64,000 bases of DNA from Streptomyces sp. NRRL F-6676. GTDB lineage: Bacteria > Actinomycetota > Actinomycetes > Streptomycetales > Streptomycetaceae. Position numbers and translations under genes: made by a program. Of this stretch, positions 1 through 41,940 are shown in pieces. Within the stretch, counting starts at the first letter, position 1; each line of letters opens with the position of its first letter. The notes below the pieces were generated by a model. It made no database searches. It worked only from the letters and a program-made list of their open reading frames with translations, and was not told where the DNA came from. The stretch is from assembly GCF_000725625.1 (NCBI RefSeq), contig NZ_JOHS01000046.1:1-64000 (forward strand). Reading direction: 5' to 3'.

Positions 1-3000
1 AGAGTTTGCCGGGTCCGGGTGGGTTGGCGGTGGGGTCGGCGTGGGGGTCGAAGCGTTCGGTGTGGAGGGTGGCGTGGGGTGCGTGGGGGCGGAGGTGGAA
101 CCAGGCGCCCTTGGTGACCGGTTCGGTGACGCGGGGTGCGGGTTCCTGGTTCCTGTTGGTGGGTGCGGGGCGGTGGCGGCCGTCGGGCTGGGTGCTGGGG
201 GCGTCGCCGGCATGCCGGGGCGCACTCGACGTCGTGTTGGTGTGCGGGAGCGGGGGCGCGGTGGTGGCGTTGTAGTGGTCCCGGTCGGTGTAGTGGACCT
301 CGATGACCCGGTCGGCGGTGGGTGGGTCGACACGGACCACGCTGCCGGGGCCGGTGCCATCGGGGTTCGGGGACAGTACCTCCACGCTCAGGTCCAGGGT
401 GTCCGCCAATAGGGGCAGGAACATCTCGCCCATGTCGGTGCCCCACGCCGTGTTCCAGTTCCGCACCGTCGCGATCGCCTGCGCGTGCTCCGCGTCGGTG
501 AAGGGCGCGGGGCTGTCGACGTAGCCGGAGGTGAGCACCAGGCGCAGTTGGTCGTCGGACAGGTCGTTCAGCGCGGGCAGCCGTCCGGTGTCCCGCAGAT
601 GGGCGAACATGTGCGGGACGCCCGGGTCCGCCGGGCCGGTCACGCCGTCCTCTCGCAGCGCGGCCCGGTAGCGCGGAGACACGTCGTCGAGCTGGTCCGG
701 CGACCTCACCCCGTCGATGCCGTACTGCTGGAGAGCGGCGAGGAGTTGGGGCCGGTTCATCGTCGCCGTCCGCGTGGTGAACGTCCTGAGCATGCTCTGC
801 CGGGCCTGGCCCACCACGGTGTGCGGCAGCGGACGTCCACCGTTGTGTGCGTCGCGGAGCCGGTTCTCGGCGAGCGTGCGGAGGAGGTCCGACGTGATGG
901 AGAGCTGGCGCCGGCCCGGAGTGCTCGGCGAGTCGATCGTCGCCATCGCCTCCTCGATGAGCGCCGCGCGCACGTCGTCCGGCCGGCTCAGCCAGGCGTG
1001 GGTGCTCGGTGAGGCGCTGCTCAGTCCGGGCAGCCGGTCGCGGACGCGTGTGGGGTCGGTACCGATGAAGCTGTAGAGCAGGCACCGGCCGTCGCCGGGG
1101 GTCAGCACGGTGTGGCCGCGCGGCTCCCGCACCTGGAAGGGCTCCGGTGCGGGGGGAGTGGCCGCGGTGCCGTCCCCGGCGGTCGTCTCCTTGGCCTTCC
1201 CCTTGCCGTTGTCCTTGCCCTTGTCCTCGTCCTTGCCGTTGTCCTTGCCCGCGTTCTTTTCCTGGTCGGACGTGTCGTTGTTCTTGTCGGTGTCGTCCTT
1301 CTTGTTGGTGTTGTCGTCCTTGCTCTTGTCGTGGGTGTCGTCGGTGTCGCCGTCGCCCGGCGGGTCGGTCTTCGGAGGCCCGGGGGGTGTCGACTCCGGG
1401 ACGGTGATCTCGGTGCCCGTCACGGAGTGGTCACCGGTGTCCGACCCTTCCGGTGCGACGGAGCTCAGGTCGCTGTCGGAGCCGTCGTCCTGCCCGGGGG
1501 CCGGGAAGTTGCCGGTGGAGGGGTTCGCCTCGCGGGGCACCCCGGAGCCCGGCCAGCGCGGGGCGGTGGCGGCCAGCGTCGTGCGCGAGGTGGGCAGGGC
1601 CGGGGGCGCGGAGGACAGCACGAGTGCCGTCGCGGGCGACAGGTAGAGCTGCGCGACGTTCCGCCAGGAGTCGGCGTCGTCACGCCGTGTGGTCGCGGCG
1701 GTGACGTCGGAGTCGATCTGGTCGAGCTGCTGCTGTGCCCGGTCCTGGGACTCCTGCGCGTCGTCCCGGACCAGGGCCTGGTGGCCGGCCAGCCCGCGTT
1801 TGCCGTTGGCGTCCGACCGCAGGTCGTTCGCCGTGGTCCGTACGCCGGGGAGCTGCGCGCGGGCGTCGTTCAGCGCCGGCTCGTCGCGGGTGAGGACGGC
1901 CTCGGTGTCCTGGAGGTCCTTGCGGTCCTGCGTCAACTGGCCGCGTACGTCACCGAGTTCGGTGGTGAGCCGCCGTACCTCGTCGGTGGCCGCCTGGATC
2001 TGCCGCTCGAGCCCGGGATCGACGGTGGGGGTGGCGTCGGTGTCCGGCGTGGGATCGGTGTCCGACGTGGGGTCGGTGCCGGACGCGGGGTCGGTGCCGG
2101 ACGCGGCATCCCCGCTCGGCCCCTTCGCCGCCCGATTCTGGAGGTCGGTGAGGTGGTTCCGGGCCGCGTCGAGTTCGCCGCCCAGGCGGATCTCCCGCTG
2201 TTCGCCGTTGTCGATGGACGCGGTCAGGGGCGGGATCTTGGCCCGGGCCTCGGTGACGGACGTGGACAGCTCGCCGATGCGCTCCGTCAGGTCCCGCAGG
2301 TTCTGCTCGGCCACGTCGGCGGCCCGCTCGGCGTCGGTGGCGGCCTGGTCCGCCTTGTTCGCCGCGTCCTTGGCCGCGTCGAGCCTGTCGGTCGCCCGCG
2401 TCAGCGACTCCACCGCGTCCGTCCGCAGGCCGTGCAGCTCGTTGAGGTCGGCGAGCGCCTGCTCGTGGTCGGCCGTGGCCGCGTCGAACCGGTTGGCCAC
2501 GAAGTCGAAGTCCGCCCACGCCCGGTCGAGGGCGGGATCGCCCGTCGTGGTGCCGGACGGCGTCGCCCCGTCCGTGCCCGGGCTCGTGTTGGCGACGAGC
2601 GTGCCGTCGGGGTTGAACGACCAGACGCGCAGCCCCTCCGGACCCCGTGTGACCAGCTCCACCGGGTGCCCGGTCGAGCGCGCCGTGCGGGAGGCGCCGT
2701 ACAGGGAGAGGGCCAGCCGGGAGCTGTCCGGGTCGGTGCCGGTCGCCACCCAGAACTGGTAGCCGCTGTCCTTGGGGTCGACGCCCCGGGCGAGGGCGGC
2801 CGGCAGCTCCCGCAGCGGGGTCGACGCCCACTGGTCCGGGGAGGTGCCGGGCCGGTTGGCGGCCAGCAGCGCCGGCAGGTCGTACACCTGGGCGACCGGC
2901 CGGGGCGGGGTGATGCCGTGGCCGAGCGCGTCGCGCTCCTCGATGCGGAGGGTGGCGGTGCCGGTGACGTGCCGTACGCCCTCGGGGCCCGAGACCTCGA

Positions 3001-6000
3001 TGTGCACATCGGCGCGCACCTCGTAACTGTGGGCGCTGCGCCCCTCCTTGGGCACGCTGGTGCTGCCGTTCTTGAGCCAGTCCCGGCGGGTGCCGGACAC
3101 GGTGCCGCCGAAGTTGCTCGGATCGGCGGGCCGTTGCAGCACCGGCGGGGTGGCGCCGAGGAGGTTGCGGTCGGGGTCGTCGGCGCTCAGCACGAACGGC
3201 AGGGACACCCCGGTGGTGGTGTCGCCGCCGGAGAGCGTGCTGCTGTTGTCCAGGGTGATCCGCAGCCGGTCCAGGGTCACGTCACCGCTGTTGGTGACCA
3301 CCCTGGGCCGGTACAGCGACACCGTCAGGGTGGGCCGTTCGTCCGGTTCACCCTCCAGCGGGAACGCGCCCGGCATCGACGGCATCATGCCGCCGACCTG
3401 ACGCGGGTTGTCCAGCGACACGGTGCCGGCCTGGAGCATCTCGCCCAGCCGCACCGACGCGTTCTCCTCGGAGGTGGAGGCCGGCCGGGCGCGCCAGCCG
3501 CGGCCCGTGGCGGGGTTGGTCTCCTCCAGGGCCGTGTACAGCTGGTCCCAGGCGTCGAACCCGTACACCGGGGTGCTCCCGGTGGGGTGGAACAGCTCCT
3601 GCTCGCGCAGCGGGGGCGGCGCGGTGCTGTGCGTACGCCGGGGATCGGACGCGGACACCGAGGGGGCCACCGGCGGACGGGAGGAGTCGCCGGTGGCGGC
3701 GTCGGCCGCCTCGCTGCCGGTGAACCGCAGACTCACCCGGGCCGGGACCCGCGCCTGGTCGCCGAGCGCGCCACTCAGCGTGCGGCTGATCCAGCTGCGG
3801 GTCCCCGCGTCCGCGTCGTCCCACGCCAGGAAGCCGCGCTGGACGAGCGCGCCCACCACGTTGGGCGGCCAGTCCGTGACGAGGGAGGTGCGGACGGTGG
3901 CGGTGAACTCGTACTCCAGATCGTCGAAGTCGGCGGCGCTGTCGGTACGCAGCCAGAACCGGTCCTCGGCGGTGTGGTTCCGTTTGTCGATCTTGCTGGT
4001 CGCGGAGACCAGATGGAACGAGGGACCGACCCGGTCGGTGCGCTCGTCGTCGTGGGGCCGGGTGAAGCGGGCCATCGGGTTGAAGGTGTAACGGTGCTGC
4101 CGGCCGACCGTGTCCGACGTGGACACGCCCGACGCCGTCTGCGAACCCCACTGCTCCATACCGGACTTGTCGGTGGGCACCGAGGTGCCGCGGATCTTCT
4201 GCCGCTCCTCGCGGGTGGAGGTGGGCCGCGCCGAGAGGGTCACCTCGACCAGGGCCGCCCCGCCGAACCGGTGGTGCCGGAAGGCGAACCTGGTCTGTCC
4301 GTTGCCGCGCCCGATCAGCGCCCGCTTGCCGGACACGCCGGTGTGGTCGGCGAGCAGGGCGGCGACGCCGGACAGATAGGAGGCGTGGCCGGGCGTGGTG
4401 GCGCCCGGCGCGAACCGGTCCACCAGCTGCCGTACCTCGTCGTGGAACCGGTTGCGCTGCTCGACCGGCCTCGGCCCCGTGCTCAGCTCGGTGACCGAGC
4501 TGACCGAGGCCAGACCGAGGGTGCCGTCCTGGATGTACCGGCTGGGCAGCGGCGGCTCCTGCTTCTCCTCGGGCTCCTTCTCGGGGGGCAGCCCCTGGAC
4601 GCCGCCCATCCACCGCCGGTCGCGCCGCAGCTGGTTCTCGGTCATCAGGAACTGCAACCCGTCCGGCACGTCCACCGCGAGGGTCACGTCCCCGTTGGGG
4701 CCGACGCCCACGGAGTTGGCGAACACGTTGCGGTTGCCGGAGCGGACGGTGAGGAGATAGGTGACGTCCGCCGTGACCCGGTGCTGGTGTCCGGCCTGGG
4801 TGGGCACCCGGTTGGTGACCGTGGTGGACGTGAGTGTCTCGGACTTGTCCGTCTTGCGGTCGTACTGGTAGCGCCCGGACGGGCTGAACCGGGACGGCCG
4901 GCCGCGGTCGGGGCCGACGGGCTGCGCCGTGGACGGCGAGCCGTCCACGCCCGGGCTGGGGCTGGTGAAGAACTGCTCGCCGTCGCCGTCGCCGTCCTGC
5001 CCCGAAGCCGGACGCGGCAGGTTGTTCTGGGTGAAGGTGCCTCCCACGCCGAACTGGTGACTCTTGCCGAACCCCTTGAGCTGCTGCGCCGAGTCGGCGG
5101 AGGAGATGCCCGTCTCCAGGTACTGGTTCAGGCTGTGCGTCAGCCGGGGCGTGTGGGCGATCGCCCGGATCTCGACGGAGACCTGCCGGTCGGAGCCGAG
5201 CCCGGGCAGCGTCAGCCCCTCCAGCACATAGGTGCCGCCGAAGAGCTGGTGGCCGCGGGCGGTCAGCGACGCGGGGGAGAGGGAGGTGGCGCGGGACTCG
5301 GCGGCCACGGTGGTGGGGTCGGCGGCGGAGTTGCCCGTCAGCGAGGTGGTGAGGAAGGTGGCGAGCCGGTTGAAGGCCCGGGAGACCGGTCCGGGAACGG
5401 AGGGAGTGGCGGCGGGCGCCGGGGTGTTCGTGTCCGTCGAGGTGTCCGGGGTGTCCGGGGTGTGCGAGGTGTCGGACGGGCCCGACGTGTCGGACGTGGG
5501 CGGAGCCGTCGGTATGTCGCCCGTGACGATCCGGCCGAAGCCGTTCTGTAGCGCCCCGGAGCCGCGCACCACGTCGACCAGGGCGTCGTCCGGTATGCGC
5601 ACGACGTCCGGCCGGGGCGCGCCGTTCTCGTCCGTCATCCGCAGCCGGTCCAGGTCGAGCTGCGAGACCGGGCGGACGGTGAACGGCCGCTCGGCGGTGG
5701 GCTCGTTGGTGGTGTCGGTGGTGGACGCGCCCTCCGTGGCGGGGACCGCGAGGGGCAGGGTCCGCCCGTGCGGCACGGCCAGCCGGACCGTGCCCCGCAC
5801 CCCGTGGTACTCCGGATCGGGGCCCATCTCCAGATCGTCGGGGGCGTGCGGTACGGGCTCCGGGGCGCCGAACCTGATCCGCGGTTCGGCGCCGGGGCCC
5901 TCGTACAGGTCGAGCGTGAGGAGCGCCGGCACCTCGAACACGTGGGTGTCCTGGTCGCCGGTGCTGATGAAGAACTGGTCGTGGCCGACCGTGGTGGCGG

Positions 6001-9000
6001 TGGTGTTGCCGAGTGTGGTGTGGCCCGTGAACTGGTAGTCGCCGGTGCCGCTCGCGGTCCAGGTGCGTCCCGGCAGCGGGATGGAGGGGCCGCCGCCGAA
6101 CCCGCCGCCCAGCCCGTAGGTGTTGCCGAGCTGCCCGTTGCCACCGCCCGCGAACTGCGTCACGCCCTCCACCTGGATGCCGGGCAGCACCCTGGCGTGG
6201 GTGACCGGCCGCCCCGGGTCCCGGGCGGCGCCCAGGACCAGCCGCACCCGGCGCCGTCCCGTCACCGAGGGGATCTCCAGGAACAGCGAGTGGCCGCCGT
6301 CCACCATGGAGTCGGTCGCCGCCCGCAGCCCCAGCTGGGACCGCAGCTCCCGCAGCCGCCGCAGGTTGTTCAACTGCGCCTGCACCAGCGTCTCGTCGGG
6401 CAGCATGCTCCGGGGGGTACGGGACGAGGGCGGCAGCAGACCCTGGTCGCGCAGCCAGGTCTCCGCCTCGTCGAACAGCGTGTCCGCGTGGTTCACGCCG
6501 AGCGGCGCGGTCGACTGCCCGATCGACTCCAGCGAGTCCAGCTCCCGCGGCAGCCGGCGGACCTCGTCCTTGGCCTTGTCCGGCGCGTGCCCCTCCGCGT
6601 CCGCGCGGCTGAGCACCCGCAGATCGAGACCGTGCGTCCAGGTGCCCGGCGCGTAGGTCGCCGTGCTTCCGTCGGGCCGGATCAGTGTGAGCGTGTAGGT
6701 GACGTCCGTCTCGGTCAGCAGATGGCCGCGGTTGGTGCGCACCGCGTGCATCGCGGCCGCGAGCGAGCTGGTGCCGAACGCGTTCTGCGCCGCGATGCTG
6801 GCGCTGCCCTTTCCGGCGAGACTGCCGCCGACGCTGCCGGTGGCGTCCGGATGGCCCTGCCGGGTGTCATGGGTGAAGGACGGGCCGATGCTGCCGGTGA
6901 AGGCGACCCCGCTGTTGAACGCGGTCTTCTGGTCGTTCTTCACCGTGTTGACGAGGTGGCTCTCCAGGTTGATCTTGCCGTCGATGCTCTTGGCGACCCG
7001 GTTCCGCGGCGCGACGACCGCGTCCAGCCGCACCATGCCGACGGCCCGGCCGTGCGCGTCGGTGAGCACCGGTGAGTACAGCCCGCCGTCGAGCTGCATG
7101 GGCAGCGTGCCGCGCAGCACCGGCTCGGACAGGAAGTCCGCGAGCTGGGAGGAGGCCGTGGCGTCGAGGTCCGTGCGGAACTCGTGCGCGGCGCCCTCGT
7201 ACAGGCGGCGCGGGTGCAGGACGGAGTCCACGCCGAAGATCGGCAGGGTGCTGGGGTGCGCGGCCTCGGGCAGTGCCTGGGACGGGTTGTCGTGCGCGTC
7301 CACCAGATGCTGCGGGAACCAGATGGTGAGCGGGCCGTGCTGGGCCGCCGGGCCCCAGTCGTGCGCCGGGTCCACGGGCGGCGCGACCGTCGATCCGGGG
7401 TCGGGAGCGGTGTCGGCGCCGGTGTTCGGGTCGCTTCCGGTGGTGGTGGGCGGCGCCGTCGGAGGTGCCGTCGGGGGCGCGTCCACCCGCACCTGCCAGT
7501 CGCCGGTGAAGTCGTAGGCGCGCGAGGGCTCGTTGCTGCGCTGGGCGCTGGTGGTCTGCACGACGTGGGTGACGGTGGTGGAGCCGTCCGCCTGGTTGTG
7601 GGTGAGCGTCGCGCCCAGCGACAGGTCCACCGCGCGGACCGGGCCCGCGTGCTCGATCGGCAGCGAACCCGTCCACGGCACCGGAAGGGTCGAGAACGTG
7701 CCGGACTGCTGCGCCGAGACGCTCTCCCGGGTGCCCTGGCCGCGCCGCTCCACATGCTTGTCGGGGTCACTCGTGTCAAGAGTGCCCTGCCGTGCGGAGG
7801 GCCGCCTCTTGCTCAGCGCCAGCCGTACGTCGACGTCCCGGTCCCTGCCGTCGACGCGCAGGGTGATCCGGTGACCGCCCAGACTGCGCAGATACGGCAG
7901 ATGCAGCGCCATCCGCTGGGCCGACAGCACGTCCTGGAGCTGCGTCAGCACCGGGTCGCCCTCGGCCGGGTCCGGCCGGTTCAGCGCGGCGATCACCTGG
8001 CGGTGCACCGCGTCCACCACGTCCGGCGAGATCGGGTTCACGTACACCAGGCCGACCTGGCCGTCGTGACGCCGTCCGTAGCCGCCGAGGTAGGAGGGGC
8101 GCCGGCCGCCGTCCGGCTCCGGTGCGGTCGTGGTGTCGTCGGGCGATGTCACGGTGATGGTCGGTATCACCGGCGTGACGGTGTCCGCGGGCGGGTCCTG
8201 CGCAGGGGGCTGCTCGGTGTCCTCCGGCGGGGGCGGCGCCGCGGAGGTCGTGTCGACGGGGGCCGGAGGCGGGGCCGGCGTGGTGTCGGTGACCGTGTCC
8301 GTGGTGGTGTTCGGGAGCGGAGCGGGCGGGTTCCCCGTGCCCGGGGCGGGCAGGCTCGACGAGGTGGTGATCGGCTGAGGGACGTCGGCCGGCGTCGGTT
8401 CCGTCGTTCCGGTGCCGCCGCCGCGGACCCGGACCGGGAGTCCGAGGTCGTTGCGGAGGCGGTCGGCGAGACCGACTGCCGGGAGTCGGCGAGCACGGGG
8501 TGCAGTTCCAGCGGCAGGACCAGCCCGGCCGCCGAGTCCCAGGCCTGCCGCACGGTGCCGGGATCCAGGTCCGGCCGCGACTGGGCGAAGTCGTCGTAGG
8601 AGTTCTGCCACAGCCGCTGGGAGGCATGGGACGCGACGGTGTCCAGGCCCTCCGGCCATGGACCCGGCCGGTTCATCAGCACCTTCACCTGGTCCACGGG
8701 GTCCAGCCCGCTGTCGGCCAGGGACACCCGGCCGTCGCCCAGCGCGAACTGCGTGTGCAGATCGGGGCCGACGGTCACTCCCGCCGCGGTGACGTCGTCC
8801 CGGGTCACCGTGATGTCGGGGCCCAGCTGCGCCGGCAGGCCGTCGGGGAGGTCGTCGGCGGTCACCTGCGAGGCGATCCACTGCCGCTGTGTCGCGTCCC
8901 GCTGCACGACGGGGGCGGGCGCGGGGTGCGGGGAGGCGACGACCGGGGCGTACGGGTCGACGCCGAGGTCCCGCAGTCGGTCCACGGTCCCGGCCAGTTG

Positions 9001-11655
9001 CTGCCCGGCCTGCTCCGCCCGCTGATTCGCCCGGTCGAGTGCGTCGAGGTCGCGGCTGCTTCCCTCGCCGTTCTCCACCCGCGTCCGGATCCGCTCGGCG
9101 TCGTTCGCCGCGTCGGTGAACTCCCGTACGGCGTCGGCGTGCCGGTCCCGCGCGTCGGCGACGTCCGTGACGTCGGGGTCGGACGACAGCTCCGGCCCCT
9201 TGCCCTTGCCGGTCACACCCTGCGGGGTGTTGGTGTGCGTCGGCGTGCCGTGACTGGTCGTGGCGACGGGGGCGTTGATGCCGGACGTGTCGTCCGTCGC
9301 CGTGGTGCTCGGCGTGTCGTCCCTCGTGCTCGACGTGCTCGACGTGCTCGTCGTGTCGTTCGTGCTGGACGTGTCGTCCGTCGTGCTCGTCGTGCCGGTA
9401 TGGCTCGTCGTGCTCGGTGTATCGCTCGTCGTGCTGGACGTGTCGTCCGTGCTGGACGTGTCGTCCGTGCTCGACGTGGCGTCCGTGTCCGGTGCCGAGT
9501 GGTCTGACTGTCCCGGCGCGGGCGTCCGAGTGCCGGTGCCGGTGCCGGTGCCCGTGCCCGTGCTCGTGCCCGGCGTCGGGGACCCGGTGGATCCGGTGGA
9601 CCCGGTCGACCCCGTCGGCCCGGTGGACGGCGAGGTGTGTGGCAGTGGTGCGCCGGTGGTCGGCAGGGGTGCGCCGGTGGTCGGCAGTGGTGCGCCGGCG
9701 GTGTCCTCGGGGCCGGGCGAGCCCTTGGACTGGTCGGTGTCCGGACCCCCGGTGTGCGCGGCCGTCTCGTCGTCGCCGAACAGACTCTCGGTGTCCGTGT
9801 CGCTGTCGTTGTCGCCGAGGGGCCTGTCGAAGACGCTGTCGGTGTCGGTCTCGGCGTCGCTGTCGTCGAACAGGCTGTCGTTGTCGACGTCGTCGTCGAA
9901 AAGGCCGCTGTCGTCCTGGGTGCCGCCCGGCCCCTGCGAGGTCGTGGACCCGGGCCGTACCCCGCCCCCGGCCGGGACCGTCCCCCCGTGCGGGGCGCCG
10001 TTCCCGGGCTGGGAGGCGCCGTTCCCGACGTGCGGCGCGCCGTTCCCGGTGTGGTCGTCCCCGGTGAGGCCCTGGGACGCCTTGGGGCCGGCACCGTTGA
10101 CGTGCACCCCGTCCAGATGCCCGCCGTCGAGATTCACGTCGCCGAGCTTGACGTCACCGAGGTCGACGTCGTCGAGGTCGACGCCGGACGGGCCGCGACC
10201 GGTGCTCCCGTTCTCGTCGAGGTCCAGGTCGTCGAGGCCGCCGGACTGCGTCTTCGGGGAGCCGGTCCCCGGACGGTCCTGGCTGCCGCCGCCCGTGGAC
10301 GACGTGCCGCCGGGCGGCGGCGTGAGGGAGGGGCCGGGGCCGAGGTCGGGGGAGTCCTTGCCGTCGCCGGGGTTGTCGGACGAGTGGCCGGAGGAGGAGT
10401 CGTTGTCCTCCGAGCCCGGGATGTCCGTGCTGCTCGTCGTGTTGACGTTGGGCGGCTTGTTGATGTTGAACTTGCCGCCGAACGCCGCCGCGCCCTGGCC
10501 GAGATGGCGTTCGCTCACCGAGCTGAGGCCGCCGCCGAGGAACGTCATCGGCCCCTCGGTGGGGAAGTGGAAGATCGCCGCCGTCGCCTGCTCGCCGAGC
10601 GCCTCCGCGCCGCCCTCGGCGAGGAAGTGGTGGATGTCCTCGCCCAGTTCGTGCTTGAACCGGTCGATCGGGGTCGGCTTCGGCTTCGGCACCGGGGTGA
10701 AGTCGGGCGTCGGGACGGTGTTGGGTCCCGGACGCGGCTTCGGCTCCGGCGTCGGGTCGGGCTTCGGCTCGGGCGTCGGGTTCGGCTTGGGTTCCGGGCC
10801 GGGCTTCGGATTCGGGTGCGGATGGGGCTCGGGCGTCGGGTTGGGCTTCGGCTTCGGGTTGGGCGTGTGGTTGTTGAGGTTGTTGTCGAACTTGTGGTTG
10901 AACTTATTGCCGTCGCCGGTCAGGTCCTTGAACAGGTTGCTGTTCGTCAGGTTCTTGAAGTTGTTCTTCAGACCTTTGAGGATGTCGTTCAGGAACCCGT
11001 GGAACAGACCGGTGAACGCGCCGAAGACACCGTCCTGGATGATCTGGTTCCAGTCGAACCCGTCCGGCCTGCGGCCCTTGGGCGCGCCCAGCATCATTCC
11101 CAGCCGGACGGCGAAGGTCTGGAACGCCTCCTCGAACATCTCCGAGAGGCTGGGCAGCGCGTGGCTGCGCTTGAACAGCCACTGCATCACCGTGAGGATC
11201 GCCACCCGGCTGCGCGCCTTCGCCACGGCGGCCTGGCTGGAGGCGGTGCCGCCGGTGAAGATGGACAGCGCCATGATGATGGCGAGTTCCAGCAACAGCG
11301 TGATCAGCTCGGCGATGATCTGCCACTTGGCCTCCATGATGTCCATGGAGGACTGCGTGCGGGACTTCTCCAGGTCGTCGAGCTGCTTGGCGAAGTCCTG
11401 GAGGTAGTTGACGCCGCCGTCGTCGAGGAACATGTGCATCGCGCGCACATAGTTCGCCCCGACCTTCGGGGGCAGGGACCGGCCCACGCCCCCGGCGGTC
11501 GCCCCGATGACGTCCGACAGGTCCCGCATGCGCCGGGCCAGCCGCCCGTACGGTTTGCCGTTGGCGTAGGCCATGTCCTCGTCGGCCTGGAGCATCTTCT
11601 CGCCGATCAGCACGAACAGCAGATTGTTCAGCTGCGGCGAGACCTGGATGCTCAT
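1..11655 (-). CDS. Giant WXG100-like ESX-associated protein with OTU-like domain (3' end off the left edge; apparent frameshift near 8475)
   Basis: The reading frame starts at ATG 11655 and, after a one-base frame break near 8475, stays open to the window edge, giving more than 3,880 residues. The N-terminal ~250 residues are helical and WXG100-like with one hydrophobic stretch, resembling the N-terminal regions of large ESX substrates of the CpnT type. Then come a Pro/Lys repeat linker (about 10660-10880), Asp/Leu-Gly-Asp-Val and Ser/Thr/Asp repeats (about 9280-10240), a conserved block ending at the frame break, long beta-rich regions, a coiled coil (about 1700-2480), a Lys/Asp linker (about 1200-1350) and an OTU-like domain (about 230-1130). 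It lies 18 bases after the 119-residue WXG-like gene, last in the minus-strand ESX block. I infer a secreted effector or surface protein; the C-terminus is not visible. Read without the shift, the first frame continues as an Arg/Pro-rich shadow to a stop at 8167. Confidence 0.75.
230..1130 (-). other. OTU-like cysteine protease domain within the giant protein
   Basis: In the open frame the protein reads [10 protein letters not shown] (Cys codon 1082-1084), matching the Asp-Gly-x-Cys nucleophile motif of OTU (ovarian tumour) proteases. About 270 residues later it reads HYTDRDHYN (His codon 275-277), matching the C-terminal catalytic His region. Between them is a Trp-Gly...Glu segment followed by a hydrophobic strand, as seen before the OTU His. 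The Cys would be near residue 3,520. The family cleaves ubiquitin or Ub-like isopeptides in eukaryotes; in bacteria OTU-like domains occur in effectors and polymorphic toxins. Assignment is by motif only. Confidence 0.6.
8466..8486 (-). other. Apparent single-base frameshift in the giant protein
   Basis: Upstream of here the frame reads a typical protein ending [14 protein letters not shown]. Continuing in that frame gives Arg/Pro-rich nonsense. Moving one base gives [19 protein letters not shown] followed by Pro/Thr linkers and thousands of bases of sensible protein. One missing G in the CAGTCGG context near 8475 explains it. It may be a sequencing error, a true mutation or, less likely, programmed frameshifting; no slippery heptamer is evident. 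Confidence 0.75.
9280..9715 (-). repeat. Low-complexity Thr/Ser/Asp and Gly-Ala-Pro-Leu-Pro repeats in the giant protein
   Basis: The region encodes reiterated DDTSST-type units (about 9290-9480), a GTGTGT run (about 9536-9565) and three copies of a seven-residue TTGAPLP-like unit (about 9640-9700). At DNA level these are short tandem repeats of 15-21 bases. They look like a flexible linker between the N-terminal ESX-type region and the coiled-coil and later domains, and are likely sites of copy-number change or assembly error. Confidence 0.7.
10655..10885 (-). repeat. Pro/Lys/Glu repeat linker in the giant protein
   Basis: Encodes [13 protein letters not shown] alternating proline units over about 75 residues, preceded by an Asn/Lys-rich helix ([15 protein letters not shown]). 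Alternating Pro linkers of this type are extended and rigid, consistent with a spacer after the N-terminal WXG100-like module. Confidence 0.65.
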
Positions 11656-11673: not shown

Positions 11674-12033
11674 TCAGCGCTTGCCGCCGTGCGAGCCGCC
11701 GTTGTTGGTGTTGATGCGGGAATCATTGATGGCGTCGAGCACGCCGTTCTGCGTGCCCACCACGCTCTTGGTGTTCGCGATCGTGCCGTCGCCCGCGCTC
11801 ACCAGCGCGTGCACCAGGGCCTCACCGGCCGCGATCGAGCCCTCGCGCTGCTCCTTCTCCTTGGGGATCATCTGCTTGGCGTAGCTGTCGGACTTGCCCG
11901 GCCAGCCGGCGGTGGCCGACACGTCGGCGACGAACTCGCCGAACATCTCGTTGGCCATCTGGCTGATCAGCTCGATCTGCCGGGTTCCGGCCATCAGCGC
12001 GCTGGGGTTGGCGAAGTACGCGTTCTCCGTCAT
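11674..12033 (-). CDS. Small WXG100-like ESX protein
   Basis: 119 residues with a predicted helical hairpin. A Gly-Trp-Pro-Gly turn near residue 43 stands where the W-x-G of WXG100 proteins would be, and the C-terminus is Asn/Gly/His/Lys-rich and disordered. The start ATG has a good ribosome site (GGAGGACTGAGGACG) five bases past the stop of the YbaB-like gene, so the two are probably translated together. The giant protein follows 18 bases later. I infer a helper or partner that pairs with the WXG100-like N-terminus of the giant protein, as small Esx partners do, but no partner is proven. Confidence 0.7.
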   Translation of the reverse strand: MTENAYFANPSALMAGTRQIELISQMANEMFGEFVADVSATAGWPGKSDSYAKQMIPKEKEQREGSIAAGEALVHALVSAGDGTIANTKSVVGTQNGVLDAINDSRINTNNGGSHGGKR

Positions 12034-12586: not shown

Positions 12587-15500
12587 TCAGCGGCCGAGGA
12601 CCGCGGGCGCACCGCCCTCGTCCGTGCCCCAGACGTCCTCGTCCTCGGTGAGCCAGGCATCCCGGGCCCGGTCGCCGCTCTCCGTGGAGCGGCCGTTCTG
12701 GCCGGCGGCCCCGGGGCCGCCCACCGGGAACGGGGCGCTGGAGGTGGTGGGCCGGGTGTACACGACGTCCTCGTCCTCGTCGACGCCCGCCGCCCTGCCT
12801 CCCCGGCCGTGCCGGGTGCCGGCGCCGGTGGGGTCGGTGAGTACGGCCCGGGTGCGTTCGCTGTTGCCGCCCTGGCCACCGCCGCCGCCCATGCCGCCCA
12901 TGCCCGGCATGCCGCCGCCCATCCCCATCGGGTTCATGGGCGTGCCGTTGCCCGCGGTGGTCTGCGCGTCCTGCGTGGTGCCGAAGCCGGCGTTGAGGGC
13001 CACGCCCTCGGAGACGTTGCCGGAACGCAGCGAGCCGCCGCCGTACGGGGTGCTGTCGTAGTCGTCGTAGTCGAGGTCGGAGCCGGAGTTCAGGCCGCCC
13101 GAGGAGTTGAGTGAACCACCGCTCGTCCCACCGCCGTTGAGCGAGGTGGGGCCGCCGTCCAGTGAGAGCGAGTCGCCGTTGCCGCCCAGGCCGCTGGTGT
13201 CCAGGGAGGAGTTGTTGTTCAGGCCGTCGGTGTTGAACGAGGAGTTGTTGTTCAGGCCGTCGGTGTTGAACGAGGACGTCGACAGACCGTCGCCGTTGAT
13301 GTCGGTGGTGGTCGAGTGCCCGCTCGGATCGGTGGTGGTGAGTTCCCCGGTGTCGGGGTTGAGCTGCTGGCTGGAGCCGTCGGGGAACTTGGTGGTGAGG
13401 GTGCCGTCGTTGTTGAGGGTGGTGGTGGAGCCGTCCGGGTTGGTGAAGCTCTCGCCCGGGTTGAGGTGGCTGGTGGTGGTGTGCCCGGTGGAGTCGGTGA
13501 CGGTGACATCACCGGTGTCCGGGTTGATGTCCTGCTTCGACCCGTCCGCGAAGTCGGTGTGGAGCGTGCCGTCGGAGTTCAGGTGCGCGCTGTTCCCGTC
13601 CGGCGTGGTGAACGACCCGGAGTCCGGCACGAGATGGGTGGTGGTCGAGTGGCCGGACGGATCGGTGGTGGTGAGTTCCCCGGTGTCGGGGTTGAGCTGT
13701 TGGCTGGAGCCGTCGGGGAACTTGGTGGTGAGGGTGCCGTCGTTGTTGAGGGTGGTGGTGGAGCCGTCCGGGTTGGTGGTGGCTGGTGGTGGTGTGGCCG
13801 CTGGGGTCGGTGACGGTGAGGTCGCCGGTGTCCGGGTTGAACGTCGAGTGCGACCCGTCCGTGAAGTCGGTGCTGAGGCTGCCGTCCCCGTTGAGCTGCG
13901 CGGTGGAGCCGTCCGGTGTGGTGAACGAACTCGCGTCCGGAGTGAGGTTCGTGGTCGTCGTGTGGCCGGACGGGTCGGTGGTGATGAGCTGCCCGGTGTC
14001 GGGGTTGAGCTGTTGGCTGGAGCCGTCGGGGAACTTGGTGGTGAGGGTGCCGTCGTTGTTGAGGGTGGTGGTGGAGCCGTCCGGGTTGGTCGACCCGTCC
14101 GCGAAGTCGGAGCTGAGGGAGCCGTCCCCATTGAGCTGCGCGCTGCCACCGTCGGGCAGGGTGAAGGAGCCGTCGGTCGGATCCAGGGTGCCCTGGGACG
14201 CGATGCTTCCGTCGGGGTTGAGCGTGGTGACCTGACCGGTGGTCGGGTCCAGGGTCTGCTGGGAGCCGTCCGGGAAGGTGGTGGTGAGGGTGCCGTCGTC
14301 GTTGAGCTTGGTGGTGGAGCCGTCCGGGTTGGTGAAGCTGTCGCCCGGGTTGAGGTGGCTGGTGGTGGTGTTCCCGTTGGGGTCGGTGACGGTGAGGTCA
14401 CCGGTGTCCGGGTTGAACGACGACGAGGAGCCGTCCGGGAAGTCGGACTTCAGGGTGCCGTCGTCATTGAGCTGAGTGGTCGACCCGGTGGGCGAGTTCA
14501 GCTTCTTGTTGCCGGTCTTGTCGTTGTCGTCACCCAGGAGCGAATTGGGGTTGACCGACTTGAACGCCAACCCGTTCAACGGATTGTTCGGATCGGTGAC
14601 GCCGTTCGGATCGTTCAACGGATTGTTGGGATCGTTGATGTCGAACGCGCCGTTCAGCCCGTTGTTGAGGTCGTCGCTGAACGTCTTGAGGTTGTTGCCG
14701 AGGCCGTTGCCGAGGCCGTTGAGGCCGTCGTTGAGACCGTCGCCGAGGTCGTTGAGGTTGGTGTTCAGGTCCTTGTTGAGGTCGTTGAAATTGTTCCCGA
14801 GGTCGTTGAAGTTGTTGCCGAGGTCGTTGAGATTCTCGTTGAGATCCTTGTTGAGGTCGTTGAAGTTGTTGCCGAGGTCGTTGAAGTTGTCGTTCAGGTC
14901 CTTGTTGAGATCAGTGAAGTTGTCCCCCAGCTTATTGACGTTGTTGCCGAGGTCGTCCAGATACTTGTTGAGCTTGTCGTTGTTCTCCTTGTTCTCGTCC
15001 TCGGCGATCTGGTTCTGTTCCTTCGTGTAGACCTCCTGGAGCGTCTCCGTGTTCTTGTTCTTGATCTCCGTCTTGATGGTGTCCAGCGCATTCGCCCAGG
15101 CATTCTTCAAATGGCTGAGTGCTGTCATGGACGCCGCCACCACCGTCTTGTCCGCGTGATCCGCCCAGGCGTCCACGGCCGCGTCGGAGATCTTCTCCCA
15201 GGTGGTCTTCTGAGTGAGGTCGCCGTACTCGGAGACCTGCTTGAACGCCGCCTCCGTCGAGTACGACGTGGTCGTGGTGGTGCCGCCCCCGTAGTTGCCG
15301 TACGTGGTCGTCTTCGACTGCACGTGATTGATGTTGTTCTCGATGACGAACTTACTGACTTTGTCCAACACCTGGACAAGGTGATAGTGGGGGTCGTGCT
15401 TGCCGTCCTTGGCCCACTCATCCCATCCCTTCTGCACATCGAGGACCGCCTGCCGCGCGGCGAACATCGCGCCGAGCAGCGCGTCGCTCACGTTCGTCTT

Positions 15501-16298
15501 CGGGTGGTAGTCGTTGAAGACGTGACCGGCCGAGTAATCACGCCCGCCCAGCTGGCTGATGTACCCGTCGTAATTCGTCTGAAGTTCCTTCAGCAGGTGG
15601 TAGAAGAGACTGGCCGCCTTCCCCTTCCACGCGGCCTGGTCCTCACCGAGTGACTTCATCCACGAGGCGATGGTGTCCGCGTGGGAGGTGAAGAAGTTCA
15701 TCACCCGGTCGAAGGACTGCCCGACGGTGACGAACGAGTTCAGGTCGACGGCGTTGGCGTCGGAGACACTGGCCCCGGCGTACTCGAAATCCTCCGTCGT
15801 GAGGTTCGCGATCAGCCTGTCGAGGGCCAGCTTGCTGCCGGAGATGTACTGCGCCATCGGCCCGGAGTCCCACTGGGTGTGCGAGTACGAACCCTCGAAC
15901 TTACCGCCGCCGCTGATCTGCTTGTCGCCCCAGAGCGTGGCACGGCCGTTCTCATCGACGCCGACACCGATCATGATGATCCGCGCCTTCTTGAAGCTCA
16001 CGCTGTTGTGCGCCCCGTCGCCGCCGGCGTCGTAGAAGGCGAGGACGTAGTCGTCACCGCCGTCGTGCCGCTGCTTGTAGAGCGCCGAGTAGTCGGCCTC
16101 GGTCACCGACCGCATGCCCTCCCCGGAGATCTCCATGCGGAACAGTTGCAGCCCCGAGAAGTCGTCGCTGCTGGCACTGCTGAGGCTCTTGAACAGGGAG
16201 GACCTGGACGGGACGGGGTAGCCGGTGAGGTTGATGACCGCTTGGGCGAAGTAGTCGCCCTCGTCGTACGTGGGGGTACCGGTCGTGCTGTCGGCCAT
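12587..16298 (-). CDS. AAWKG-family type VII-associated repeat protein (apparent frameshift near 13780)
   Basis: The start is ATG 16298 with GGAGCTCC upstream. The N-terminal ~340 residues hold a WXG-like helical module with the motif QAAWKGKAAS (near residue 225), the hallmark of the actinomycete AAWKG family found beside ESX genes. About 130 residues of heptad-like NDLGNNF/NDLNKDL repeats follow, then tandem ~40-residue units built on NPDGST, FPDGS and LNPDTGELTTTDPSGH, and a Gly/Ser/Asp/Met-rich tail to the stop at 12587. One repeat unit lacks 20 bases near 13780, shifting the frame; reading on in the first frame gives a His/Arg-rich shadow to 13509. Total about 1,235 residues if intact. 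Likely a secreted or surface ESX substrate; role unknown. Confidence 0.8.
13290..14500 (-). repeat. Tandem NPDGST/FPDGS/NPDTG protein repeats
   Basis: Direct repeats of about 120-150 bases encode TTxLNxDGTLxxxFPDGS-xLNPDTGELTxTDPSGHTTTxH units, each related to the next by near-identical DNA stretches of 40-70 bases. Two joins are irregular: an in-frame one near 14095 (FADGS joined directly to TNPDGS) and a 20-base loss near 13780 that breaks the frame. Such repeats are prone to unequal recombination and to short-read assembly collapse. Confidence 0.85.
14640..14960 (-). repeat. Asn/Asp/Leu heptad-like repeat (coiled-coil-like)
   Basis: Encodes about 100 residues of reiterated NDLGNNF, NDLNKDL and NENLNDL units with Leu/Phe every three or four positions and Asn/Asp elsewhere. 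This suggests a long, highly polar coiled coil or fibre segment between the AAWKG module and the NPDGST repeats. The DNA is visibly lower in GC (AAC/AAG-rich) than its surroundings. Confidence 0.7.
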
Positions 16299-16950: not shown

Positions 16951-17274
16951 TCAGCGGCCGATGGTGACCTCGGACCACATCTGGCTGAGCGAGTTCTCGC
17001 TGTACTTGTAGCTGGAGGAGATGTCGCTCAGGAGCTGTGCGTGCGAGGTGAGCAGCGTCTCCATGTTCTGCACCGCGCCGTCCCAGGCCGCCTGCTTCTG
17101 GCGGTAGGTGTTGGCGTCGTTGCCGTACCAGGTCTTGGACAGCTCGCTGAGTTCGGCCTCAAGGTTGGACAGCGTCTGCGCGATGGCCTTGGTCTGCATG
17201 ACCATGTCGTCCGCCGCGTTCGACATGTGGTTGTAGCTGACGTAGATGTAACCGTCGCTCAGGTTGTCTGCCAC
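16951..17274 (-). CDS. esxB: WXG100-family ESX protein (EsxB-like)
   Basis: 107 residues from GTG 17274 with AAAGAGG upstream. It shows the WXG100 plan: a helix, a Trp-Tyr-Gly turn (near residue 49, W-x-G), a second helix, and a C-terminal Y-x-x-x-E signal (YKYSE, near residues 89-93) of the type that targets ESX substrates for export. It is 78 bases after the other WXG100 gene, and the two presumably form the secreted heterodimer and share a promoter. The name by analogy with the S. coelicolor pair is an inference. Confidence 0.85.
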   Translation of the reverse strand: MADNLSDGYIYVSYNHMSNAADDMVMQTKAIAQTLSNLEAELSELSKTWYGNDANTYRQKQAAWDGAVQNMETLLTSHAQLLSDISSSYKYSENSLSQMWSEVTIGR

Positions 17275-17352: not shown

Positions 17353-17691
17353 TCAGCCCGCCAGCTGGTCGAAGGCGGACTGGGAGGCGTTGTACGCCTG
17401 GTTGATCTGGTCGTTCGAGGAGCCCTGGGTCTTGTTGTGCTCCACCAGGCTCTGGTTCAGCCGGTCGATGACGTCCTCGAGGTTCTTGAGGATGACGTTG
17501 CACTGGCCGTCCCACTGGGCGAGCAGCTGGCCGTACTGGCCACCGTCGCTGCCCTGGTAGCCGCTGCCCAGGGTGGAACGGGTGCCGTCGACGTCCTGGC
17601 GGATCTTCATGATGCCGCTGAACGCGCTCTCGAGGGCCTGGATGCCGTTCCGGGTTGAACTTTCGCTTGACTGCTGGCCGTCTCCCGCCAT
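17353..17691 (-). CDS. esxA: WXG100-family ESX protein (EsxA-like)
   Basis: 112 residues from ATG 17691, chosen for the AAAGGTGGGACG ribosome site; the upstream in-frame ATG at 17730 lacks one. It has the helix-turn-helix outline of WXG100 proteins, with Tyr-Gln-Gly (near residue 47) replacing W-x-G at the turn and two conserved-looking aromatics later. It lacks an obvious C-terminal YxxxD/E signal, which fits a partner that rides with the EsxB-like protein. It is the first gene after a promoter-like sequence at 17735-17764. Confidence 0.85.
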   Translation of the reverse strand: MAGDGQQSSESSTRNGIQALESAFSGIMKIRQDVDGTRSTLGSGYQGSDGGQYGQLLAQWDGQCNVILKNLEDVIDRLNQSLVEHNKTQGSSNDQINQAYNASQSAFDQLAG

Positions 17692-17734
17692 CGTCCCACC
17701 TTTCGTAAGTCGGGTTAGTGTTCGGGGCACTGCG

Positions 17735-17925: not shown

Positions 17926-19590
17926 TCACGAACTGCTGCCCGCGGTGCCCGAGTTGCCCGCGGAAGGCCCGGTGCCGGCGCCCTTGCCGGTGCCCGCCTC
18001 CGTGCCCTTGCCCGCTTCGGCGCCCTTGCCCGCCCCGGTGCCCTCCGCCGGGGCCTTCGCCCTGGCGTCCCCGGCAGCGACGGGTGACGTACCCGCCTTC
18101 CCGGAGCCGGCGCCGGGACCGCCCGTGCCGCACTGCGCCGCCGCTCCGCCCGCCGCGGGCCCTGCTGCCGCCGCCGGGGAGACCGCCTCCTCCGCCGCCG
18201 CCTTCGTGTCCAGCTCGGGCCCGGTCGGCAGCATCGACAGCAGCGTGGACGGCACCCGCACGGCCGACGCCTCGTTGTAACCCAGTGCCGTGAGTGCCTG
18301 GGAGTCCGGGATGCGGTACTTCACCCCGTCGTCGCTCACCAGGAACGTGGTGTCGCCCACCGACGCGCCGGCCGCCCCCAGCACCCGTACCAGCGTGCCG
18401 TGGCCCGGACGCATCACCACCCCGTTCACCGGCACGCACGCCGCCGTCAGCGCCGTGGTGTCCGGTTGCGCCACCGGGGACAGCTCCGACTCCGCGAGGC
18501 GCACCGACCGCACCCGCACCCGGCCGTCGACCGAGTCGACCTGCGCGCACGCCGCCACCCCGGAGTCCAGCTCCGCCGCGCGCGGCGGACTGTCCGGCAG
18601 CCCGGGCACCGAGGGGTCCTTCGCCGACGTGCCCGGCGCCTGATGGGCCCGCAGATCGGAGACGCCGATCGTGGTGACCGCCGGCGGCTGCCCGTCGTAG
18701 GCCCTCTTGCGGGTGGCCGGGTCACCGATCAGCAGTGCCGACTGCGTGGCCGTCACCGGGTGCAGCCCGTCCTTCTGCAACACGTACTCCTGCTTGCCGG
18801 AGCCCGCCACCACCCGGAACACCTGGCCCACCCGGGTGGGCCGCCCGTCCAGCTCCGGGCCCTGCGAGCCCTGCCCCGCGACCGCCGGGGTGGCCAGCTT
18901 CGGGCCGCTCACCAGGGCGTCCAGGAACGCCGCCGACACCGGCCGGGGCTTCACCGCCCCGTAGCCGAGGGACTCCGCCGCGCCCGAGGCGTCGTCCAGC
19001 ATCAGCCGGCTGCCCTGCCACACCAGATACGTCCGCCTGTCCGGTCCCCGCACCACCAGCGCCGAATCCTCACTCACCGGCTTCGTCTCCACCGGTGCCC
19101 CCGCCACCAGCGCCGTCGTCGTGCCCGAGCCCGCCGAGCACACCTCCCACGCCGAGTCCTCCAGGTCGCCGGTGCCCGGCACGGTGTCCGGGGCGCCGGT
19201 GATGCCCACCGGCCTGCCCACCGGGGTGCCCTCCAGCGACGCCGAACCGACCGACGTCGTCGACAGGTCGGAGCCGCCGATCAGCATCGCCGACGCGTAG
19301 TTGCGCACCGGCCGCAGCCGGCCCCCGGCGTACAGGTAGCGGGCGCCGGTGTCCTTGTTGACGATGAGGGTGTCGCCGCTGCGCCAGGTGTCGTTGCCGC
19401 CCGGCCTGAGCAGCCCGAACACCACCGCGCCGCCGCACACCAGCGCGCCGACCACCACCCCGATCAGTGCCCCGCGGGTGGTGCGCCCCAGCGGACTCTC
19501 CGGGGCGTCCGGGTCGGCCAGCAGCATGCCCGCGGTCAGCCGCCCCATCATGAACGTGTGCGCCTGCACCTGGTCGCGCTTGGACCGCAC
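17926..19590 (-). CDS. eccB: Type VII secretion protein EccB
   Basis: 554 residues from GTG 19590 with a near-perfect AGGAGG site. The N-terminus MRSKRDQVQAHTFMMGRLTAG is characteristic of EccB, followed by one transmembrane helix (about residues 39-62) and a large extracytoplasmic region with the repeated beta-rich segments of EccB (e.g. GDTLIVNKDTGARYLYAGG near residue 72). The C-terminal ~110 residues are Ala/Gly/Lys/Glu low complexity. EccB is a core part of the ESX membrane complex. The gene follows eccD by 60 bases on the same strand. Confidence 0.92.
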   Translation of the reverse strand: MRSKRDQVQAHTFMMGRLTAGMLLADPDAPESPLGRTTRGALIGVVVGALVCGGAVVFGLLRPGGNDTWRSGDTLIVNKDTGARYLYAGGRLRPVRNYASAMLIGGSDLSTTSVGSASLEGTPVGRPVGITGAPDTVPGTGDLEDSAWEVCSAGSGTTTALVAGAPVETKPVSEDSALVVRGPDRRTYLVWQGSRLMLDDASGAAESLGYGAVKPRPVSAAFLDALVSGPKLATPAVAGQGSQGPELDGRPTRVGQVFRVVAGSGKQEYVLQKDGLHPVTATQSALLIGDPATRKRAYDGQPPAVTTIGVSDLRAHQAPGTSAKDPSVPGLPDSPPRAAELDSGVAACAQVDSVDGRVRVRSVRLAESELSPVAQPDTTALTAACVPVNGVVMRPGHGTLVRVLGAAGASVGDTTFLVSDDGVKYRIPDSQALTALGYNEASAVRVPSTLLSMLPTGPELDTKAAAEEAVSPAAAAGPAAGGAAAQCGTGGPGAGSGKAGTSPVAAGDARAKAPAEGTGAGKGAEAGKGTEAGTGKGAGTGPSAGNSGTAGSSS

Positions 19591-19650: not shown

Positions 19651-21054
19651 TCAGCCCGTCATGCCGCGCAGATGACCGAACACGCCGAGCAGCCACAGCG
19701 TCAGCGGCAGCAGCGCGATCGCCAGCAGCGAGTGCAGCAGCTCCGCCGCCCGCCCCCAGTACGGCACCAGCCGCCGCCCCGGCACCGTCCACAGCGCCAC
19801 CAGCAGCGCCGCCGCCACCGCCAGCAGCCCCGCCACCAGCAGCGCCCGCCGCGACCCGGACAGCTCCAGACCCCAGCCGAACGTGAGCAGCAGCAGACCC
19901 CACGCACCCGGCAGCACCAGCACCAGCCGCTGCGCGGTGTTCACCAGGCCCCGGCCGTGCAGGAGCAGCAGCAGCGACAGCACCAGCGCGCACAGCAGCG
20001 CCGGCAGATTCGGTTTGTGGGCCAGCCCCACCAGGCAGCTCGACGCCAGCACACCCGTCGCCCCGTACAGCGCCGTCATCCACTCACTGGCCAGCTCGGT
20101 ACGGACCGCCACGTCGTCGCCCCGGTAGGGCTCGATGCCCTCCTGCAACTGGCTCGCGTTGGTCGGCAGCGCCGGCATCCGCATCCCCGCGAACCGGAAC
20201 GACAGCGCCGGCACCAGACCGCCCACCAGCACCGTCAGCGCCGCCACCACACCGGCCGCCGCCGCCGGACGCACGTCGAACACCGTCATCAGCGTGCCGC
20301 CCACCGCCGCCGCCAGCGCCACCAGGGCCGACGCCAGGAACAGCGGCGTACGCACCGCCGCGGCCGCGAGGGCCAGCACCGCGCCGCCCGCCCAGGCCGC
20401 CGCCGCCCCCAACAGCCGGGCGCCCAGCACCTGGTGGGCCTGCGGCCCGCTGAGCTCACCGCCCGGCACCAGCCAGCCCGCCATCGCCAGCGCCGGGGAG
20501 GCCAGCAGGCCCAGCACCGCGCCGGTCGCCGGATCGTCCACCGCCCGGCTCGCCGAGGCCGAACCCGCGAGGAGCAGCAGCCCCGTGGCACACGCCGCCC
20601 CCACGCGCAGCGGCACCGAGACACCCCCCGGCCAGGCCAGCAGGACCAGCCCGGACAGCACCGCCAGCGCCACCAGTCCGCGCAGCAGCCGCCGCGCCGC
20701 CTCCTCGCTCCAGCCGTGCAGCCGGTCCCGGGTGACCGCCGCGATCCCGTCCACCAGATCGTCGAGCCGCACCTCCGGCAACGCCTCGGTACGCGGCCGC
20801 AGATGGAGCGCCTCACCGTCGGTCAGGTCGAGCGAGGCCAGCGTCGCCTCCTCGTCCAGCGGCCGGCCGCCGAGGCGCTGAAGTATCCAGCCGTCGTGCT
20901 CGAGGCCGTTCTCCTCGACGTCCTCGCCCGCGTAGCGCAGCACCGTGGGCAGCAGATCGGCGACCGGCACGTCGGACGGCACGGCGAGGTCGATGGTGCG
21001 GGCGGGGGCGCGCACGGTCACATGGCACAGTCCGGCCACGGAGGTGTCGGTCAT
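19651..21054 (-). CDS. eccD: Type VII secretion integral membrane protein EccD
   Basis: 467 residues from ATG 21054 (MTDTSVAGLCHVTV); the frame is open to 21216 but the upstream part reads through the intergenic region. The N-terminal ~90 residues form a ubiquitin-like YukD fold (ILQRLGGRPLDEEATLASLDLTDG region), followed by about eleven hydrophobic helices, the layout of the EccD channel subunit. It starts the minus-strand ESX block and is divergent from eccC across a 335-base spacer. Confidence 0.92.
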   Translation of the reverse strand: MTDTSVAGLCHVTVRAPARTIDLAVPSDVPVADLLPTVLRYAGEDVEENGLEHDGWILQRLGGRPLDEEATLASLDLTDGEALHLRPRTEALPEVRLDDLVDGIAAVTRDRLHGWSEEAARRLLRGLVALAVLSGLVLLAWPGGVSVPLRVGAACATGLLLLAGSASASRAVDDPATGAVLGLLASPALAMAGWLVPGGELSGPQAHQVLGARLLGAAAAWAGGAVLALAAAAVRTPLFLASALVALAAAVGGTLMTVFDVRPAAAAGVVAALTVLVGGLVPALSFRFAGMRMPALPTNASQLQEGIEPYRGDDVAVRTELASEWMTALYGATGVLASSCLVGLAHKPNLPALLCALVLSLLLLLHGRGLVNTAQRLVLVLPGAWGLLLLTFGWGLELSGSRRALLVAGLLAVAAALLVALWTVPGRRLVPYWGRAAELLHSLLAIALLPLTLWLLGVFGHLRGMTG

Positions 21055-21389
21055 ACCGGGACTCACATCTCTCAACGTCGGATACGGGAAGGCAGCAGGA
21101 CTAGGAACGGGAAGACCGGGGGAGGGATGACATGGACGTACGGAGTTGACGGGGTGCAGACTACTGACACTTCCGATCACCGTCGTCAACGGGGATGGGG
21201 GCACAATGGTGTTCACGTCGTGTTACCCCTGAGGGCACGTACTGGTGCACCGCCGTATCGTACGGTCCGGCCGACCGGCCTTCCCCGCGCGCCGCCCGGC
21301 GTGCGCTGCCGAGGTGCCGTTCCCGGGCGCGCCCGGCTGCCTTCCCGTGCCGCCGTCGCGTGCGAACGAACCGTTAAGGAGCTCCAGCG
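21055..21389. promoter_or_regulatory. Divergent intergenic region between eccD and eccC
   Basis: This 335-base spacer holds no convincing gene. On the minus strand a weak promoter candidate reads TTGACG (21184-21189), 18 bases, then AGTAGT (21160-21165), about 105 bases before eccD. On the plus strand the only clear signal is the ribosome site AAGGAG at 21376-21381, eight bases before the TTG start of eccC. Control of both ESX arms probably lies here. Confidence 0.4.
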
Positions 21390-41933: not shown

Positions 41934-41940
41934 CCCGGCC

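Follow-up and report, generated by a model that had tools for sequence, protein, structure and literature searches.

A giant ESX-linked modular protein in Streptomyces sp. NRRL F-6676 and its relatives, with predicted peptidase pairs at the module joints

The stretch of DNA analysed here (hereafter the window) comprises bases 1-64000 of contig NZ_JOHS01000046.1 (C44) of the 166-contig draft genome of Streptomyces sp. NRRL F-6676, base 1 being the contig end, and encodes the N-terminal part of a very large bacterial protein that is probably secreted. In the reading that we favour, and to which we give roughly an even chance, the first module of a giant protein exported by a type VII (ESX) secretion machine lies in the window, with at least two further modules on contigs C93 and C18. 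A WXG100-like N-terminus, together with a small partner encoded upstream, would target the giant to the adjoining EccABCD machine; large beta-rich cores with predicted long beta-hairpins and a barrel-like geometry would follow; each core-core joint of the close subfamily would comprise a coiled-coil-like stretch, an OTU cysteine peptidase and a metzincin-type metallopeptidase; and the chain would end with a conserved C-terminal domain. The OTU/metallopeptidase pairs would act at the joints and dice the chain into units after export, and recombination in a homogenised metallopeptidase segment would alter the number of modules. That the peptidases act at the joints we rate somewhat short of even, and the fullest version, a self-dicing exported polyprotein in which as many as five barrel- or pore-like modules form a single chain reaching 15,000 residues, which is cut outside the cell and varies its module number like an accordion, seems unlikely. 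The architecture, the ESX linkage, the OTU fold (of a relative), the junction rule and the subfamily size ladder described below were read from sequence or from structural models.

The giant gene and its continuation beyond the window

Two overlapping minus-strand open reading frames (ORFs) in different frames make up the window part of the gene, 11655-8167 (1,162 aa) and 8881-2 (2,960 aa, open at the edge). Third-position GC, computed per 300 bases, places the switch of coding frame between ~8,600 and ~8,300; in the second frame it remains at 0.90-0.99 as far as it was computed, to about base 200, and the result is a single coding path of ~1,062 + ~2,819 = ~3,881 residues that is open to the window edge. 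An earlier note on this DNA had described a minus-strand frame of more than 3,880 residues, broken once and running from 11655 to the edge, and this was borne out, with no stop before the edge. A chance high-GC ORF was ruled out by third-position GC and by the homologues found for both frame parts (the protein searches scored only the 7,976 and 7,988 candidates with most common words). A programmed frameshift is not favoured because the relative P0022 reads through the region of the break and the gene of G068, a single-contig genome, is unbroken over its whole length.

The 97 bp that open the window also close C18 and, likewise identical, stand at the end of C93, a contig of 7,955 bp with one open frame over its full length, and the first 58 bp of C93 recur in C18, 649 bp inward from the common end. 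The simplest reading would be that a repeat of 707 bp is present at two joints (C44 - repeat - C93 - repeat - C18) and has been collapsed on C18; from the ends common to them we infer this order and that the three contigs carry one gene. The frame of C18 changes at 159982-160014, within the repeat presumed to be collapsed and between the segment common to the window and the metallopeptidase motif; past this point come a core, the C-terminal domain and a stop. C93 might in turn represent several near-identical modules collapsed into one, which makes three cores a minimum; the window gene resembles a form with three or more. A multi-module architecture is highly probable for the source genome and nearly certain for its relatives. 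The large, effector-like protein of the earlier note found support, but the window would show only the first of at least three modules. Elsewhere in the same genome, a distant core relative (25%) is found on contig C1 (485204-485938) in a 3,149-codon frame.

The source-genome copy could also be a pseudogene, or its breaks could be assembly errors in a collapsed repeat: the frame is broken at 8458-8482, within C18 and in the neighbouring AAWKG-family gene, and three contigs end in the same 97 bp. Yet third-position GC is coding-like on both sides of the window break, the single OTU cysteine is retained in the window piece and in C93, and several relatives are intact; decay or mis-assembly is in our view very improbable.

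Predicted peptidase domains at the joints

The OTU-like domain that had been proposed near the window edge (230-1130) found support in the predicted structure of a relative's segment, 60% identical to that of the window, in which the model and its fold search point to a papain-like OTU fold. The Pfam OTU profile was silent, with no match in the window frames and 0/20 members at E <= 0.1, and sequence comparison of the OTU with solved structures gave nothing useful. The alignments kept 34 core and 19 OTU segments plus the window segments, the loci L048 and L067 (Streptomyces sp. P3, many frame breaks) being left out; in the 20 aligned OTU copies the cysteine of the D-G-x-C nucleophile motif and a later histidine are invariant, and the aspartate nearly so. 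The predicted nucleophile of the window lies at 1082-1084 and the histidine at 275-277. OTUD1, OTUD2, OTUD3 and nairovirus OTUs have the predicted fold and the Cys/His motif in common with the OTU of the giant, which differs from these deubiquitinases by its low identity (8-18% in the listed alignments), a large helical insertion and its embedding in a bacterial giant.

The metzincin signature consists of HExxHxxGxxH/D and a downstream Met turn. A motif of this type, HELLHYLGLPD with GLM downstream, is located outside the window on C18, and relatives display the same pattern; the model of the metallopeptidase segment reached a pLDDT of 40-86 by block, and its fold search was dominated by the OTU part. 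Both domains are predicted peptidases, presumably active. OTU and metzincin-type motif were found together at 17 of the 17 core-core junctions counted, in 10 genomes. A junction required both cores in one open frame (BLAST E <= 1e-8), and the set comprised the loci of the named scan, G068, C93, C18 and P0003-P0017, with L036 and L038, apparently one locus, counted once, and with G236 and other distant giants outside it. In 4/4 intact multi-core proteins of the subfamily the cysteine count equals the OTU count (1, 1, 3 and 4), each cysteine being the nucleophile; the other genes of the window (crude script calls) contain 1.02% Cys, a content at which ~150 Cys would be expected per 15,000 residues.

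The two peptidases might instead be cargo aimed at the proteins of other cells, such as eukaryotic grazers (e.g. amoebae), fungi or rival bacteria, with the cores delivering them and tandem modules raising the dose. The OTU fold is deubiquitinase-like, its active-site residues are conserved in the 20 aligned copies, the OTU follows the sole core in some relatives, and a toxin role of type VII OTUs, beside processing, is considered in the accessible part of Zhang et al. 2012 (PMC3482391). In multi-core relatives, however, the peptidases are internal, at the joints, and not C-terminal, and the gene directly downstream of the giant is in 5/5 loci a lectin gene of no known immunity type, immunity genes elsewhere not having been sought. 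We consider such an effector role rather unlikely; the window OTU may be a processing peptidase and not the toxic part.

Relatives, size ladder and module classes

Relatives were found in a minority of the genomes sampled, the source genome included: 6/121 genus genomes matched the OTU segment at E <= 1e-10 and 16/199 the core at E <= 1e-5, and 5/296 genomes of a class sample matched, all from one of its 114 genera. The named scan gave 39 loci in 20 organisms (19 titled Streptomyces and one 'Actinobacteria bacterium OK074'), and 10 plasmid records matched, all from Streptomyces and all at <60% identity. Among viral contigs there were 63 pattern matches, none of them a relative, and a defence library gave weak matches only, in helical or coiled-coil-like stretches.

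Within the close subfamily the giants form a size ladder of 1, 2, 4 and 5 cores, each added module accounting for 2,800-3,250 residues: P0005 of S. tendae (2,978 aa, one core, without OTU), the mutually close Streptomyces sp. 2131.1 and CB01249 (6,210 and 6,189 aa, 2 cores, 1 OTU), S. xylophagus NRRL B-12029 (12,319 aa, 4 cores, 3 OTUs) and G068 (15,162 aa when its 15,168-codon frame is read from the first Met; 5 cores, 4 OTUs, 5 HExxHxxGxxD motifs). A tree of 19 cores resolves three clades of first, middle and last cores, each with 100/100 support, in which the window core is a first, that of C93 a middle and that of C18 a last one; a long-branch warning applies (P0012, P0013, P0005), which leaves the root and the positions of the single-core proteins uncertain. 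Middle cores number 0, 0, at least 1, 2 and 3 in the five genomes compared.

Between the first and second copies of G068, DNA identity is 89.8% in the metallopeptidase segment, 66.3% in the OTUs and 67.3% in the cores. In the two genomes compared, the metallopeptidase segment thus appears homogenised within the genome, which would make it the expected place for unequal crossing-over, and near-identical joints would explain why contigs end inside the gene in several draft Streptomyces assemblies. The C-terminal domain is conserved in C18, G068, S. xylophagus, 2131.1, CB01249 and P0005; it found no match in the distant relatives G236, G053, G025 and L064, so the end varies in the wider family. 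In G236 the giant (C17 1913-60805, L085-L088) occupies 19,630 codons without a break in frame; its start is WXG-like (24%), and it contains two cores, at 25-31% identity.

Structure of the core module

The core measures ~1,850 aa, and its first ~1,165 residues were modelled as very long beta-hairpins in a barrel-like geometry. A Foldseek search of the PDB gave nothing at E <= 0.001, and sequence comparison of the core with solved structures only FtsZ rows at E 0.2-0.3, which were disregarded, as were two rows at E <= 0.001 from a viral fold library (listed TM-scores <=0.12). The outer-membrane beta-barrels CymA, KdgM and EspP share 4-18% identity with the core in the listed alignments. Membrane-inserting strands were rejected as a candidate, the best-window hydrophobic alternation reaching p < 0.05 in 6/22 strands and in 0/6 of the longest. 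A barrel or pore nature of the cores is conceivable but doubtful.

Repeated beta-rich modules and a ladder of lengths would also suit a surface fibre or sheath of Streptomyces, trimmed by the peptidases during assembly and anchored by the lectin whose gene, with one hydrophobic segment (by eye), lies directly downstream. Its patchy presence, in 16/199 genus genomes, argues against a core structural role, and the domains ahead of the first core are variable; we regard this structural role as improbable.

The ESX locus and neighbouring genes

The favoured reading of an ESX-exported giant draws on its surroundings (Table 1). The linkage to an ESX locus that the earlier note had claimed was confirmed, EccA, EccB, EccC, EccD and WXG100 proteins adjoining the giant, and the WXG100-like start was also upheld, if narrowly (PF25547 28.3 bits against a cut-off of 27). 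These are features of a type VII substrate, and export of the giant by the ESX machine is very likely. CpnT of mycobacteria is another large ESX-linked protein with a WXG100-like N-terminus, and its likeness to the giant is limited to that N-terminus. The N-terminal domain of the giant is 76-81% identical to those of P0003, P0004, P0018 and P0020 and 42-64% identical to six more proteins. No HExxHxxGxxD motif was seen ahead of the first core on reading the window translation; five intact relatives have one, at positions 548-976.

Table 1. Features of the giant gene and of the adjoining ESX locus in the window.
Feature	Coordinates	Strand	Evidence
Post-OTU linker toward metallopeptidase segment	1..241	-	first 97 bp common to C18 and C93
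OTU-type cysteine peptidase domain (predicted)	242..1120	-	alignment; model and fold search of relative
Coiled-coil-like and linker stretch	1502..2533	-	SMC/Rad50-type matches, residues 2117-2404, far below cut-off
First core module, ~1,840 aa	2570..8095	-	comparison and model
Frame break between two reading frames	8458-8482	-	frame readings and third-position GC; relative P0022 reads through
Variable domain ahead of first core	8464..9123	-	46-74% to P0019, P0021, P0022, P0024
Linkers: proline-rich, acidic, Ser/Thr-rich	9136..10881	-	composition
Conserved block among N-terminal linkers	10417-10665	-	comparison with relatives
WXG100-like N-terminal domain (type VII targeting)	10882..11655	-	WXG100_2 PF25547 28.3 bits, cut-off 27
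Small gene directly upstream of giant	11674..12033	-	WXG100-like by eye; syntenic in relatives
AAWKG-family gene, second large type VII-linked protein, two overlapping frames	12587..16298	-	NF038047 317.9 bits (first frame), cut-off 70
WXG100 protein	16951..17274	-	PF06013 44.5 bits; TIGR03930 50.8, cut-off 44.85
WXG100-like protein	17353..17730	-	PF06013 22.7 bits, below cut-off 27.3
EccB	17926..19590	-	PF05108 364 bits
EccD	19651..21216	-	PF19053 287 bits
EccC (Ca+Cb) ATPase	21396..25364	+	TIGR03924, TIGR03925 above cut-off
EccA-type double AAA ATPase fused to right-handed beta-helix	26873..30268	-	TIGR03922 492.8, cut-off 466.65; PF13229

The small upstream gene, which ends 18 bp ahead of the giant and has no Pfam or NCBIfam match, was matched in 13 distinct loci of the 47 relative loci, and 11 of these 13 contain both WXG100 genes; many of the remaining loci start inside the giant gene or have too little flank. 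The WXG100-like protein next to EccB is 91-96% identical in nine distinct syntenic loci and 70-78% in L049 and L069. For the EccA-type gene, TIGR02881 (spore_V_K, 533.2) outscores TIGR03922. The repeat-rich C-terminal part of the AAWKG gene seems, by eye, to be frame-shifted.

The giant had been placed last in the ESX block; base 1 is merely where the contig ends, and on C18 and in four relatives (G068, L053, L057 and L060) a lectin-type gene follows 38-53 bp past the stop of the giant, in 5/5 loci inspected. Members of this downstream family combine a hydrophobic segment (by eye) with a ricin-type lectin end, and the C18 copy (L008 10909-12000) matches NCBIfam lectin profiles, below their cut-offs. 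The gene does not look like one for a cytosolic immunity protein, immunity families having been sought at no other neighbour. Further along the window, a mannose-binding B-lectin domain protein is encoded near the ESX block (30501-32324, +), and an FxsB-type radical SAM maturase fused to a HExxH peptide beta-hydroxylase at 41863-44343 (+) likely marks a peptide-natural-product locus.

Relation to known giant proteins

Giant OTU-bearing type VII toxins are a class that is already known, and the earlier note, in calling such a Streptomyces form unusual, understated prior knowledge. The accessible part of Zhang et al. 2012 (PMC3482391) reports OTU domains in actinobacterial type VII toxins, for which both toxin and processing roles are considered, and gigantic Streptomyces proteins of >10,000 aa with OTU and other peptidases, and it also gives SACTE_5178 (13,652 aa), a giant actinobacterial type VII polymorphic toxin. 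Giants of the SACTE_5178 type resemble the window family in genus, in length (>10,000 aa) and in having OTU and metallopeptidase domains listed among their peptidases, but differ, as far as that text goes, in mixing ART, caspase, lethal-factor-type and MCF1-SHE domains; the concatemer of one kind of core with an OTU-metzincin pair per joint, as seen in the window subfamily, does not appear among the descriptions in that part of PMC3482391. The size ladder, the joint peptidase pair and the pattern of one cysteine per OTU, and likewise the three core classes, the homogenised joint and the barrel-like core, were absent from the searched literature, which was covered in part and had most subscription papers outside it.

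Related giants bear the NCBI label 'lonely Cys domain-containing' (NF012197). One of them, WP_331752471.1 (L079 7782-39311; 10,509 aa), is encoded on a linear plasmid of S. chartreusis with its own ESX genes, EccD, EccB, WXG100 and AAWKG genes lying upstream, and resembles the window family in its WXG start (38% identity) and in one core (36%). It matches NF012197, whereas the window frames and C93 do not, and it has 14 Cys and lacks the OTU and HExxHxxGxxD/H motifs searched for.

Discussion

Several observations weigh against a giant whose peptidases act at its joints. Were core, OTU and peptidase duplicated as one unit, duplication by itself would produce the junction rule; the Cys and His kept in all 20 aligned copies carry weight beyond that rule. 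Outside the close subfamily the pattern loosens: G236 has two cores without an OTU match or metzincin motif between them, and its 2 Cys lie outside any OTU match; G091, G312 and G025 carry an OTU after a sole core; G053 has an OTU, no core match and 2 Cys; and P0005, with one core, has 3 Cys and no OTU. The other single-core relatives contain 2 (P0012), 3 (G025), 6 (G312), 1 (P0013) and 1 (G091) Cys. Length alone does not give the module number, because single-core relatives with other domains (P0012, P0013, G025, G091) reach 4,900-7,000 aa. The Pfam OTU profile is absent from all 20 members scanned, the frame breaks of the window copy and of the C18 repeat may mean that the gene is decaying or mis-assembled, and the order C44, C93, C18 hangs on the common ends. 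Export and cleavage at the joints are both inferred.

Were the favoured reading true, the giant would reveal what length of chain a type VII machine can cope with, and its relatives would provide a natural series of 1, 2, 4 and 5 modules with which to probe the limit of chain length. It would also supply an example of a bacterial OTU that probably acts on something other than ubiquitin. The cysteine pattern, confined in the close subfamily to the nucleophiles, and the homogenised joints are directly testable clues.
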